Below, piece after piece: positions 12,544-52,334 of a stretch of DNA of 64,000 bases. The notes beneath the pieces were generated by a model. That model was not told the origin of the DNA, ran no database searches, and saw nothing but the letters and a program-made list of their open reading frames with translations. Position numbers and translations under genes: made by a program. The stretch is taken from assembly GCF_040783975.1 (NCBI RefSeq), contig NZ_CP160631.1, positions 3,596,001-3,660,000 on the forward strand, written 5' to 3'. The DNA comes from Pantoea sp. Ep11b. Its GTDB lineage: Bacteria; Pseudomonadota; Gammaproteobacteria; Enterobacterales; Enterobacteriaceae. The first letter of the stretch is position 1; the number at the start of each line of letters is the position of its first letter.

Positions 12544-12727
12544 TTTTCTCTGAGATGTTTGCATGTGGGCCAGTCCCCTGAGCCGATATTTCGAAAAAAC
12601 AGAATGTGACGCTCTGTAACCTGTGTGCATGCTCGGTTCGTCCGAGAAGCCTGATGGTTACGACGGCATGTTCACCTTGAACCAAGGGTTCAAGGGTTAC
12701 AGCCTGCGGCGGCATCTCGGAGATCTC
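12544..12727 (+). ncRNA. ssrS: 6S RNA
   Basis: The 184-nt stretch closely follows E. coli 6S RNA, with TTTCTCTGAGATGTT at the 5' end pairing with GGCATCTCGGAGATCTC at the 3' end, and the conserved blocks GGGCCAGTCCCCTGAGCCGA, CATGCTCGGTTCGTCCGAG, CCTTGAACCAAGGGTTCAAG and GGTTACAGCCTGCGGC. The molecule mimics an open promoter and sequesters sigma-70 RNA polymerase in stationary phase. Its location between zapA and fau is the conserved one. Ends are set by comparison and may be off by a few bases. Confidence 0.95.
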
Positions 12728-48310: not shown

Positions 48311-49390
48311 ATGAATAAAAAATTAATCGCCTTATTGGTGATAGCTCCACTTTTGGTCTCCTGTTCCGGGTCGAAGCATCAGCAGTCTCACGAAGAGTGG
48401 GTAAAAGATACCAATGGCTTTGATATTCTGATGGGGCAGTTTGCTCACAATATTGAGAATATCTGGGGTATCAATGAGGTCCTGATTGCCGGACCAAAAG
48501 ATTACGTCAAATACAGCGACAACTATTACACCCGCAGCCACATCAACTTTGAGAGCGGTAAGCTGACGATCGAAACGATCTCAGGCACCGATCCTATGGC
48601 CAGCCTGCGCCAGGCGATCGTAACCACCCTGTTGATTGGCGAAGATCCGGGCAATGTCGATCTCTACTCCGATGCCAACGACATCGAGATCAGTAAAGAG
48701 CCGCTGCTCTATGGTCAGGTACTGGACAACACCGGTCAGCCGATTCGCTGGCAGGGCCGCGCTGAAGCCTTTGCGGACTATCTGATCCAGCACAAACTGA
48801 TGCGCCGCACGTCCGGTCTGCATGTGATTTACTCTATTTCGATTCCGATGGTGCCGAACCACCTCGACAAGCGTGCGCACAAATATCTGCCGATGGTGCG
48901 TAAAGCCGCCGAAGAGTATGGTGTCGATGCGTCGCTGATCCTGGCGATTATGCAGACCGAGTCGAGCTTTAACCCCTATGCGGTCAGTCACTCAGATGCG
49001 CTGGGCCTGATGCAGGTCGTGCAGCATACCGCCGGTGTGGATGTGTTCCGTATGAAGGGCAAATGGGGCAAGCCGAGCCGCAGCTATCTGCTGGATCCGG
49101 AGAATAATATCGACGCCGGTACGGCCTATCTGGCGCTGTTGCAGCGCAACTATCTGGGCGGCATTCAGGACCCCCTGTCACGCCGCTATGCAGTGATCAC
49201 GGCTTATAACGGCGGGGCTGGCAGCGTGCTGCGCGTCTTCTCAAGCGATAAAGATCGGGCGTTTGCGATGATAAACAATATGTCACCGGGTAAGGTTTAT
49301 CAGACCCTGACCAGTCAGCATCCGTCGGCGGAGTCGCGCCGTTATCTTTATAAGGTGAATACTGCGCAGAAGAGTTACAGAGGGTTCTGA
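48311..49390 (+). CDS. mltC: Membrane-bound lytic murein transglycosylase C
   Basis: Outer-membrane lipoprotein transglycosylase, 359 aa as in E. coli. Lipobox LLVSC with lipidated C18. The N-terminal DUF3393 domain spans roughly residues 25-190; the SLT domain follows, with the catalytic Glu in [20 protein letters not shown] and [15 protein letters not shown]. It cuts peptidoglycan to 1,6-anhydromuropeptides. Start at 48311 gives the lipoprotein signal; the frame is open to 48275. In E. coli nupG follows; here a repeat element starts 9 bp past the stop. Confidence 0.95.
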
Positions 49391-49398
49391 CTGGGGGT

Positions 49399-49735
49399 GT
49401 TTGCTGCGCAAACAGGCTGGGCTTCGCCTGGCAGTCGTTTTACCCTGTGCGGGTTTCGTTCGCCTGGTGGCTGGGGCAGTTTCAGGCCCGCTTCAGCAGG
49501 CGACCGACAAGGGGGCGCCAGTCGCCGCGCCCCCCTGACCCCGGGCTCCGGCCTGCATCACCGCCGCTTCGATTCTTCCGGGTTTCTCACGGACCGGCGG
49601 GACGCGCCATCCCTGGCGTGAGCCCGCCTCTTCGCGACATCCCTGTCGCTCGTCCTGAAATCCCTCATCCGCTCAGCGGCTCTGACGGCCTCCCTCCCCG
49701 CTGTAACTTCTTCTTTCTGTGTTGGGTACTTTATC
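49399..49735 (+). repeat. Structured repeat element, copy 1, in the mltC 3' region
   Basis: A GC-rich element of about 340 bp starting 9 bp after the mltC stop. In order: hairpin GTTTG-CTGCG-CAAAC (49399-49413); GCGGGTTTCG (49449-49458) able to pair with TTCGC; GC hairpin GGGGGCGC / GCGCCCCC (49511-49534); a block ending CGGACCG and hairpin CGCCA-TCCC-TGGCG (49590-49618); hairpin GCGACA-TCCC-TGTCGC (49634-49649); then a T-rich end (49709-49735). The same modules recur in the same order on the opposite strand at copy 2. Several frames are open here but none shows protein-like features. Element boundaries are approximate. Confidence 0.7.
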
Positions 49736-49799
49736 GCTTCAGGTTCAGAGGATCAGCTCTGGCTCTGGCTCTGGCTTCCAGGCCAGCAGACAACGCTGC

Positions 49800-50144
49800 A
49801 TCGTAATAAACAAAAAGAATTCGCAGACGACAGTCTGACAGAGGCGTCCGCAGCGCCGGGGAACAACCGGAGGCCAGGATGAGCCGACAGGACGTCGGCG
49901 AAAGGACGGCACGCGCCAGGGATGGCGCGTCCGGACGGTCCGCAGGCCGCAGGGCGTGACGAGGGTACCGCACGAAGCGGGGCGCGAAGGCAGCCGGACG
50001 CCGGGATTGTTAAGGGGCGGGCGTCCGCCCCTTGACGCGTCCGCCCGCACGGGTGAACTGAAACTCCTTCTCGCCTGGCGGGCGAAACCCGCTCAGCGTA
50101 AATCCGCTGCCCGGCAAAACCATTGCCCCGTTCGCGCAGCGAAC
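49800..50144 (-). repeat. Structured repeat element, copy 2, in the speC 3' region
   Basis: Inverted, diverged copy of the element at 49399-49735, starting 37 bp after the speC stop and read on the speC strand. Order: hairpin GTTCG-CTGCG-CGAAC (50144-50130); GCGGG-TTTCG-CCCGC (from 50092); AAGGGGCGG hairpin (50033-50012); CGGACCG block with CGCCA-TCCC-TGGCG (49942-49914; 26 of 29 bases equal copy 1, including 19 in a row); hairpin GCCGAC / GTCGGC (49899-49883); and hairpin CAGAC / GTCTG followed by a T-rich end near 49815, which looks like an intrinsic terminator. Between the copies, 49757-49775 has three tandem CTCTGG units. Confidence 0.7.
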
Positions 50145-50180
50145 TCCCCTTCACCCGGCGGGCCGCTGCCCCGGCTTAAA

Positions 50181-52334
50181 TCAGCCCGCCACCATCATAT
50201 TCGCCACCAGATATTTTCGTCCCTGCTCATCCTCTTCGGTGTAAACACCCTGCAGCTCCGGCGAGAAGCCAGGCAACAGATTCAGCCCCTCTTCCAGCGC
50301 CAGGAAATAGCGCTGCACCGCGCCGCCCCAGATCTCTCCCGGCACCACGCAGAGCACGCCCGGCGGATAAGGCAGCGCCCCTTCCGCCGCGATTCGCCCT
50401 TCTGCCTCGGCTATCGGCACCAGCTCCACCTCGCCGCGAATATAGGCCTGATGCGCATCCTGTGGATTCACCCTGACCGCCGGGAACTCTGCGGCGCGGA
50501 ACATCAGGCGCTGCAGATCCTTCACATTGTGGCTGACGTAGAGATCGTGCATCTCCTGACAGAGACGCCGCAGGGTGTAACCCGCATAGCGTCCGGCATT
50601 TTTGCGGTAGAGGGTCGGCAGCACTTCGGCCAGCGGCGCATCCTCTTTAACGTGCTGCTCAAACTGCGCCAGCATCGCCACCAGATTGGCCATCTTCTCC
50701 GGACTCTCTGCGGGCGTCAGCAGGAACAGGATTGAATTGAGATCGCACTTCTCCGGCACGATGCCGTTCTCACGCAGGTAGTTCGCCAGGATCGTCGCCG
50801 GTATACCAAACTCACTATACTCACCGCTGGCCGCGTCGATGCCCGGCGTGGTCAGCAGCAGCTTACAGGGATCGACCCGATACTGATCGCGCGCATATCC
50901 GGCAAATCCGTGCCACTTCTCCTGCGGTTCAAAGCTGAAGTAACGCAGATCGCGGGCGATCGTCTCCGTCGGGGCATCCTGCCAGCGCTGTCCCGCTACT
51001 TTCTCCGGCACAAACGGCAGGATCATTTCGCAACGTTCCAGGATCGCTTTGCGCGCATCAATCCCCAGCCTGACGCACTCATCCCACATCCGACGCCCCG
51101 CTTCGCCCTGATGCATTCTGGCGTTGATATCCAGCGCGGCAAACAGCGGGTAAAACGGGCTGGTGGATGCGTGCAGCATAAATGCGTTATTCAGGCGCTT
51201 ATGCGGGCAGAAGCGCCGCTGGCCACGGATGTGATTATCCTTTTTATGAATCTGCGACGTCTGCGAAAAACCGGCCAGCTGCTTGTGCACGGACTGCGTC
51301 ACAAAGATGCCGGGATCGTTCTCATTCAGCTCCAGCGTCAGCGGTGAACAGCCCTCCATCAGCGGAATGAACTGCTCATAGCCGAGCCACGCGGAGTCGA
51401 ACAGGATGTAGTCGCACAGGTGGCCGATGCGGTCCACCACCTGACGCGCGTTGTAAACCGTGCCGTCATAGGTGCCCAGCTGAATAATCGCCAGACGGAA
51501 CGGCCTCTCTTCTCCGGCACGCTCGGGCGCTACCGCCGCAATCTGCCTGCGCAGATAAGCGTCATCAAAGCAGTGCGCATCAATGCCGCCAATAAAGCCA
51601 AAGGGATTACGCGCCGCTTCCAGATAAACCGGCGTCGCGCCCGCCTGAATCAGCGCACCATGATGGTTCGACTTGTGGTTGTTGCGGTCGAACAGCACCA
51701 GATCGCCACGGGTCAGCAGCGCATTGGTAACAACCTTATTGGCGCTGGAGGTGCCGTTCAGCACAAAGTAGGTTTTGTCGGCGTTAAACACCTTCGCAGC
51801 ATACTTCTGCGCATCTTTGGCGGAGCCTTCATGGATCAGCAGGTCGCCCAGCTTGACGTCGGCATTGCACATGTCCGAACGGAAAACGTTCTCGCCATAA
51901 AAGTCGAAGAACTGTTTGCCTGCCGGATGCTTTTTAAAGAACGCACCGCCCTGATGACCGGGACAGGCAAAGGTGCTGTTCTGCATATCGACATAGCGGC
52001 TCAGCGTCTCAAAGAACGGCGGCAGCAGCGCCGCTTCATACGCCTGCGCAGCCGCCTCCAGCGCCTGCCACGCCTCCGGCTCGCCATTCAGCTCACCGCT
52101 GACGCCGGGCAGGTGCATCACCTCCTCTTCAAAGGCGTTCGCGACAAAGACCGGCAGATTGAAGCCGGTGTGGCGCAGCAGGGCCAGTACCCCGCTGCGG
52201 GTATCCGCCAGCGAGACGACAACCGCCGCCACATCGGTAAAGTCGGTGTTATCCAGCGTCACTACATCACGCGCGGTGTTCAGGGTCAGGCTGGGCGCAA
52301 CGGCGGCGCTGGCAGCAATTTTCAGTGGAGTCAT
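50181..52334 (-). CDS. speC: Ornithine decarboxylase SpeC
   Basis: PLP decarboxylase making putrescine from ornithine, 717 aa (E. coli SpeC 711). N-terminal response-regulator-like wing domain (to about residue 110), then the fold-type I core with NSTFACPGHQGGAFFKKHP, NGTSSANKVV, and the PLP lysine in TQSVHKQLAGFSQTSQIHKK near residue 355; C-terminal domain ends near 717. The position between mltC and the rest matches constitutive SpeC, not inducible SpeF, which is normally followed by potE. Together with speA/speB it gives two routes to putrescine in this window. Confidence 0.94.
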   Translation of the reverse strand: MTPLKIAASAAVAPSLTLNTARDVVTLDNTDFTDVAAVVVSLADTRSGVLALLRHTGFNLPVFVANAFEEEVMHLPGVSGELNGEPEAWQALEAAAQAYEAALLPPFFETLSRYVDMQNSTFACPGHQGGAFFKKHPAGKQFFDFYGENVFRSDMCNADVKLGDLLIHEGSAKDAQKYAAKVFNADKTYFVLNGTSSANKVVTNALLTRGDLVLFDRNNHKSNHHGALIQAGATPVYLEAARNPFGFIGGIDAHCFDDAYLRRQIAAVAPERAGEERPFRLAIIQLGTYDGTVYNARQVVDRIGHLCDYILFDSAWLGYEQFIPLMEGCSPLTLELNENDPGIFVTQSVHKQLAGFSQTSQIHKKDNHIRGQRRFCPHKRLNNAFMLHASTSPFYPLFAALDINARMHQGEAGRRMWDECVRLGIDARKAILERCEMILPFVPEKVAGQRWQDAPTETIARDLRYFSFEPQEKWHGFAGYARDQYRVDPCKLLLTTPGIDAASGEYSEFGIPATILANYLRENGIVPEKCDLNSILFLLTPAESPEKMANLVAMLAQFEQHVKEDAPLAEVLPTLYRKNAGRYAGYTLRRLCQEMHDLYVSHNVKDLQRLMFRAAEFPAVRVNPQDAHQAYIRGEVELVPIAEAEGRIAAEGALPYPPGVLCVVPGEIWGGAVQRYFLALEEGLNLLPGFSPELQGVYTEEDEQGRKYLVANMMVAG

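Follow-up and report, generated by a model that had tools for sequence, protein, structure and literature searches.

A dispersed 644-bp unit with outward TwoAYGGAY-type arms between mltC and speC of Pantoea sp. Ep11b, probably the empty form of a two-armed element

Introduction

Between the stop codons of the convergent genes mltC (49390) and speC (50181) of Pantoea sp. Ep11b lie two diverged, oppositely oriented modules, and the question addressed here is what they are. The window analysed is a stretch of 64,000 nucleotides of contig NZ_CP160631.1, and positions are given in its own numbering. A sequence-only reading had described the modules as two copies of a structured element in a region from which nupG is missing, and had proposed a 3'-end RNA family, a mobile non-coding repeat, or both. 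The modules are present in the sequence, and no nupG-like gene occurs between mltC and speC. The names of these two genes are those of the earlier reading, the other gene names were recognised from translations, and none was taken from annotation.

One of the modules belongs to the TwoAYGGAY RNA family (RF01731), which Rfam types as cis-regulatory and places in clan CL00106, which we take to be the clan of CsrA-binding RNAs. The 2010 table of Weinberg et al. lists TwoAYGGAY as probably an RNA and probably not cis-regulatory, found in human gut, gamma-Proteobacteria and Clostridiales (PMC2864571). Matches to CsrA sites, or predicted CsrA binding, were published for the family in 2014, and the tandem-GAs of the family are mentioned in a passage of the same source (PMC4333381). 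Both the family and its proposed link with CsrA were already known; for two-armed units or defence slots we found no published description in the open-licence literature. We consider it probable that the 644-bp mltC-speC element is an empty dispersed unit, in which outward-facing TwoAYGGAY-type arms surround a slot, and that the arms, when transcribed outward, would likely bind CsrA.

Organization of the unit

Both modules are arms of one 644-bp unit, the bounds of which were set at 49449-50092 because its ends there are inverted repeats. The left terminal repeat, GCGGGTTTCG (49449-49458, plus strand), is the counterpart of CGAAACCCGC (50083-50092), which belongs to the right terminal hairpin TCGCC/GGGCGA (50071-50092, plus strand); an outer end resembling this hairpin, TCGCCgaCAgGGCGaAA, is found in the consensus of the arms of family f12. 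The left arm (49449-49695), which aligns with other arms, has its structured strand on the minus strand, towards the mltC stop, and contains hairpin 1, GCGACAGGGATGTCGC (49634-49649, minus), and hairpin 2, CGCCAGGGATGGCG (49605-49618, minus), both with GGA in the loop. The right arm (49839-50092) is structured on the plus strand, towards the speC stop. Its hairpin 1, GCCGACAGGACGTCGGC (49883-49899, plus), with a GGA loop and tandem G.A pairs at the base, and its hairpin 2, CGCGCCAGGGATGGCGCG (49912-49929, plus), also with a GGA loop, were both recovered in parses, folds and the Rfam alignment. In the outer part of each arm folding gives a GC-rich hairpin, at 49511-49536 (minus) on the left, with similar ones in the own-genome copies, and AAGGGGCGGGCGTCCGCCCCTT at 50012-50033 (plus) on the right, with similar ones in some of these copies. 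The centre is 143 bp long (49696-49838) and is the positional counterpart of a variable, gene-holding slot in other families. This succession of left arm, short centre and right arm, termed here the empty state, is seen from the terminal inverted repeats, from two further whole-unit copies in the genome (L013, L015) and from the units at the mltC-speC site of relatives.

Outside the unit are a flanking hairpin with a CTGCG loop, GTTTGCTGCGCAAAC (49399-49413, plus), and its match on the speC side, GTTCGCGCAGCGAAC (50131-50145, minus). Similar hairpins recur in the mltC-speC flanks of relatives, some of which contain GTTCGCTGCGCGAAC hairpins that resemble the two just named (49399, 50131). These flanking hairpins, the CGCCATCCCTGGCG block and the pairing-preserving base changes had all been pointed out by the sequence-only reading and are all in the sequence. 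A protein-coding remnant, which that reading had named as an outcome that would tell against it, was rejected: the open reading frames of the unit overlap on both strands and five of them gave no Pfam match. Elsewhere in the window an ordinary 6S RNA (RF00013, 128 bits) is located at 12544-12727.

Match to RF01731 and the structured strand

The right arm matches RF01731 at 49875-49942 on the plus strand with 45.6 bits, above the curated gathering cut-off of 43, and is therefore the one arm filed as a member of the family; the left arm matches at 49556-49687 on the minus strand with 41.5 bits, 1.5 bits under the cut-off. Since the matches are on the plus strand at the right and on the minus strand at the left, both arms point outward, to the 3' ends of the neighbouring genes. 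The arms share with TwoAYGGAY RNA the two GGA-loop hairpins, the common closing stem and the tandem G.A pairs. They differ from it in that the window loops, AGGAC and AGGGAT, keep the GGA of the family's A-Y-GGA-Y but not the Y at position 2 (f12 arms have the loop ATGGAT), and in their pairing as arms of a unit, which is not among the features described in the published passages on the family.

The strand was assessed with 63 distinct Pantoea-type arms from the own genome, relatives and named Pantoea records, which gave 47 distinct parses; a degenerate pattern run against the genome contigs picked out 21 stretches, every one from Pantoea. When only Watson-Crick pairs were scored, G.U exceeded A.C by 35 to 6 and G.A exceeded C.T by 150 to 3, with 13 other oppositions, these being counts over related arm sequences and so not independent of each other. 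Without the base of hairpin 1 the neutral scoring gave 61 G.A to 3 C.T, and an earlier count, in which the scoring was biased to G.U and G.A, had given 33:6 and 154:1. Because G.U so exceeds A.C, and G.A so exceeds C.T, the structure is placed on the GGA-loop strand, that is the outward one. Nearly all arms have tandem G.A at the base of hairpin 1, and in two other stems tandem G.A alternates with Watson-Crick pairs; the arm stems also carry compensatory changes (GGCGGG/CCCGCC, GGCGGG/CCTGCC, GGCAGG/CCTGCC). Pairs were counted from per-sequence parses because the MAFFT alignment, in which two types of hairpin 1 loop are out of register, yielded a poor RNAalifold consensus on both strands, though a somewhat better one on the sense strand (-17.4 versus -8.5).

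The element is not, as suggested earlier, a 3'-end RNA read on the strands of mltC and speC: the structure is on the opposite strand and points towards both genes, and elsewhere arms occur in other settings, in L015 upstream of a gene resembling cbl and in L088 in the interval that separates a leuD-like from a leuB-like gene.

Both pair parsers had sought GGA loops, which they found in 93 of 94 loops, and the loops were for this reason counted again in pattern-free MFE folds. At least two hairpin loops with GGA were present in 56 of the 62 arms that were long enough, against 13 of 62 shuffled sequences. In the alignment 62 of 63 arms retain the GGA columns of hairpin 1 and 60 of 63 those of hairpin 2, the three exceptions in hairpin 2 being two arms shifted by a shorter loop and one that is cut off. 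This constancy bears on the view that the unit is a passive interspersed repeat between convergent genes, its hairpins serving as terminators or stabilisers of mRNA 3' ends and its GGA loops being incidental. The location of the window unit agrees with it, REPs having been reported in a similar location (PMC3733652), and a terminator-like match follows the mltC stop at 49416 (two such matches were found where 0.9 were expected). The stems vary while the GGA columns are kept, however, the hairpins of the window arms are not followed by a U run, and other arms are upstream of the cbl-like gene (L015) or inside the leu-type row (L088); we regard a passive repeat as decidedly unlikely.

Copies in the Pantoea genome and on other replicons

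The genome holds three whole units, one partial copy and one that is internally deleted. When the left module was used as a blast query against it, it returned itself and four more places on the plus strand (E 1e-114 to 2e-33, 78-91% identity), as well as three minus-strand matches; these correspond to the right arm of the window unit and those of two other units. The window unit is 84% identical over 699 columns to the copy between nac and cbl (L015) and aligns in two blocks (91% and 89%) with that behind putA (L013); the amn-side copy is partial and the adeP-side copy is without its middle. The "two copies" of the sequence-only reading are accordingly real and repeated beyond chance, but they are the two ends of one 644-bp unit which recurs as a whole. 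At the amn-adeP site of the own genome (L014) the units are partial or have lost their middle. In genome G267 two LuxR/PAS genes at this site are flanked by two complete units (L187); such a pair was considered as cargo of the own-genome unit and was rejected, being in G267 between two complete units and not inside one.

An origin from a phage, a plasmid or E. coli was likewise rejected, since neither the phage records nor the E. coli genomes gave a match to the unit (E<=1e-5) and plasmids hold partial pieces only. Parts of an arm occur in two megaplasmids of Pantoea, and in one of the two RF01731 scores 41.8 bits, below the cut-off. Nine Klebsiella records share a 62-79-base outer piece of the left arm. 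This piece is repeated in two Klebsiella pneumoniae records (L047, L049), at 10 places in CP125156, and RF01731 was not found in these two when scanned at E<=0.1; the Klebsiella piece is perhaps a separate repeat which shares the outer hairpin.

Distribution and orientation of the arms

Of 295 genomes in the order, 66 have an RF01731 match above the cut-off and 86 one at E<=0.001, with matches spanning 22 of 99 genera. None of 14 control genomes has such a match; at E<=10 one control gives a match, under the cut-off. The structured, dispersed, non-coding element under selection on its hairpins that had been foreseen is thus borne out, both by further copies, in the own genome and across the order, and by the compensatory stem changes in the per-sequence parses.

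Orientation was examined in 156 matches from 13 genomes, of which 150 are among the matches listed for 12 of 16 genomes and six are from the own genome. Among these listed matches, neighbours on opposite strands within 12 kb were divergent in 20 cases and convergent in none, and 36 were tandem. The 70 arm matches of the fetched loci, weaker ones included, gave 20 divergent, 2 convergent and 19 tandem neighbours in loci picked partly for holding pairs, and both convergent cases are junctions between adjacent pairs. The 34 Pantoea-type loci gave 30 divergent neighbours, from 28 distinct sequences, against a single convergent case, between two units of G267 (p 3e-8), and 11 tandem ones. As opposite-strand neighbours are almost all divergent, the unit is read as a divergent pair of arms, sometimes with extra tandem arms; solo arms also occur. 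The gap between divergent Pantoea-type arms is 128-278 bp (30 pairs), and outside the own family it ranges from 70 to 8816 bp. In locus L086, between genes resembling der and xseA, three arms follow one another in direct tandem, repeating about every 577 bp, and in L088 the arm (1912-2038) is inside a leuD-leuB-like gene row, antisense and some 30 bp from the next gene.

The mltC-speC and nrdD-nrdG sites

The mltC loci of 24 genomes of the genus, own included, were compared, their states being read by eye from sequence. A two-armed unit precedes speC in eight, one arm followed by other sequence is present in one, no arm is found in twelve, where the interval is 47-169 bp (one of these, L073, has a stretch resembling an outer end), and three have other content. 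Also by eye, the unit is oriented one way in three loci (own, L051, L053) and the opposite way in five (L052, L055, L056, L061, L064). In L052 the right arm is a hybrid: its inner half is of the left type (96%) and its outer half of the right type (90%), a pattern such as recombination between arms would leave. The mltC-speC regions of L052, L061 and L064 have tandem repeats of 30-45 bp outside the unit which resemble the terminal repeat. The arm-free sites of relatives look, by eye, too divergent to align, and no target-site duplication was shown.

A second site was followed in genus g26, where each of the 24 genomes searched gave an nrdG-like gene, one of them no more than a weak paralogue, and 23 loci were examined. 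The interval between the nrdD-like and nrdG-like genes is without arms in 15 of these, measuring 2-78 bp in eleven and 177-305 bp in four; it has arms in four (G138, G076, G266, G237), and in the remaining four (G187, G317, G176, G257) the nrdD end was out of range. The arms enclose an 887-aa PHP/ATPase protein (Ppl-like ATPase) in G138 and a DUF2971 protein in G076, and G237 and G266 have a solo arm. In longer DNA of G187, in which nrdD was still not seen, an arm pair is present some kilobases upstream of nrdG with two ORFs between, and longer DNA of G257 and G176 showed no arms at the nrdG site. The nrdD-nrdG interval is therefore one site at which arms enclose different content in different species.

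Presence and absence of this kind, together with the content differences at nrdD-nrdG, the dispersal of the unit, its terminal inverted repeats and terminal hairpin and the divergent orientation of its arms, would also suit arms that work as folded single-stranded DNA, one on each strand near the 3' end, recognised by a recombinase or transposase acting in trans; the hairpins would then function in moving the unit rather than in an RNA. G.T and tandem G.A pairs stabilise folded DNA too, and the strand test does not separate RNA from folded single-stranded DNA. Against this, the search for a cognate transposase of the unit found neither the Y1 transposase domain PF01797 nor a RAYT-like protein in any of the five own-family genomes searched, G257 also had no RAYT-like protein, and paired GGA loops are targets of CsrA, for which no new recognition rule is required. 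We judge folded DNA to be an unlikely basis for the arms, and a RAYT or Y1 transposase as common mobiliser was rejected for the own family and G257.

Homologous recombination between arms as long and similar as these would allow the content of the slot to be swapped or inverted, a process we infer from the like arms that flank different content and from the hybrid arm of L052.

Content of the slot

In families other than the own one, arms are separated either by a short gap or by one that contains genes. Twenty pairs whose arms are more than about 1 kb apart were examined, 17 from family f12, two from f6 and one from f7; the L177 pair was located by arm HMM only, and the HMM reveals one more arm in L182, so that about 660 bp are left there. 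At E<=1e-20, a threshold picked after the results were known, an ORF with a PADLOC match was present in 12 of the 20 slots (f12 10/17, f6 2/2, f7 0/1). Four of the 12 are of one family, PDC-S31 (L118, L124, L175, L180). The others are PDC-S49 (L079), NsnA/PD-T4-2-like (L080), PDC-M11A with RTasSLATT (L115), PDC-S20/KAP NTPase (L119, L184), PDC-M01/PtuA-like (L122) and, with partial coverage of the model, Ppl-like (L121) and a protease-domain match (L185). The PDC models represent candidate defence systems, and the matched slot genes are defence-like by sequence only. Seven long slots (L113, L120, L126, L177, L181, L182, L186) had no match at this threshold, and that of L123, which contains apparent core genes, was left out of the PADLOC scan and counted among the eight of 20 without a match.

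PADLOC was given 33 of the approximately 50 slot ORFs of at least 80 aa, including one that lies in the 604-bp gap of L081. The control set was 20 ORFs from eleven of the loci, all located beyond the divergent slots. At E<=1e-20 the slots have 14 matching ORFs of 33 and the flanks none of 20 (Fisher p 3e-4). Relaxing the threshold to E<=1e-3 leaves a weak contrast, with 14 of 33 in the slots and 3 of 20 in the flanks (p 0.036). The best of the three flank matches (3e-17) is to a methyltransferase-like protein, and all three look like superfamily matches. RAYT-like Y1 transposase genes adjoin the arms in L115 and L122, and by eye one is near nrdG in L179; the RAYT-like family has up to 48 matches in a single f12 genome, many of them fragments.

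A wider reading, which we put forward tentatively and with less than even confidence, is that TwoAYGGAY hairpins are the ends of undescribed gene-carrying units, in which paired, structured arms that face outward enclose an exchangeable slot. Through it anti-phage defence genes would be shuffled between fixed chromosomal sites in several families of the order, and the content of the slot would come under the control of CsrA, the window holding the gene-free form. No gene-loaded slot was seen in the 34 Pantoea-type loci, and since their slot is also short, the Pantoea-type element is probably gene-free, with arms that could act only from read-through or other transcripts.

Predicted binding of CsrA and transcription

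The arms would likely bind CsrA, as predicted from their paired GGA-loop hairpins: the 56 of 62 arms counted above have the two or more GGA hairpin loops per RNA expected of a CsrA-binding RNA. The loop context of the left arm, ACAGGGATGT, fits what we take to be the CsrA consensus, and csrA is present in all 11 arm-bearing genomes tested. If the arms are transcribed outward, RNA modules would result whose paired hairpins could bind CsrA. A transcript which starts in the slot and runs outward would end in an arm, and expression of the slot genes may in this way be tied to CsrA.

No sigma-70-like promoter was found in 49380-50190, in a scan of low power (0.1 sites expected by chance), nor was there an excess of such signals upstream of 61 arms, none of which scored 9 or more (mean 6.75, shuffled 7.01). 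As no promoter was found in the region and none in excess upstream of the arms, arm RNA of empty units may need read-through: a long transcript of mltC would include the sense strand of the right arm, and one of speC that of the left arm.

GGA-loop hairpins are also the hallmark shared with the CsrB/CsrC/RsmX-Z sRNAs, and the arms might be ordinary sponge sRNA genes of the CsrB type arranged in divergent pairs. In favour of this are a suggestion published for the TwoAYGGAY family (PMC4333381) and the three CsrB-like sRNAs that come from one 404-bp intergenic region of Alteromonas (PMC5864184). The arms depart from such genes in having two strong GGA hairpins per core, in the absence of a promoter signal from the scans above and in their divergent pairing around a slot, the cargo of which a sponge leaves unexplained. 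The genome moreover has its own csrB elsewhere (211 bits), so that no extra CsrA sponge is needed, and we consider sponge genes highly improbable. The reading we prefer remains that of an empty two-armed unit with arms that would bind CsrA when transcribed.

Relation to other elements

Like MITE-like and REP/BIME repeats the unit is non-coding and dispersed, with terminal inverted repeats, several copies and often a position between convergent genes; it differs in its longer arms, its strand-specific covarying structure and, elsewhere, its gene-carrying slot. From REP/RAYT it also differs in that all five own-family genomes searched are without a RAYT. In integrons, cassettes with attC are bounded by structured sites, as the slot is by its arms, but the arms form inverted pairs that point outward, each at a single chromosomal locus. 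Anti-phage defence hotspots and islands have in common with the slot that defence-like content differs at one chromosomal site, but the slot is bounded by a structured pair of arms.

An orphan Rfam family thus gains a genomic setting, many of its copies being the ends of a two-armed unit. If the reading of the slot is true, searches with the arm sequences would offer a way to find defence genes, and it could be tested whether Csr regulation is directly linked to defence cargo.
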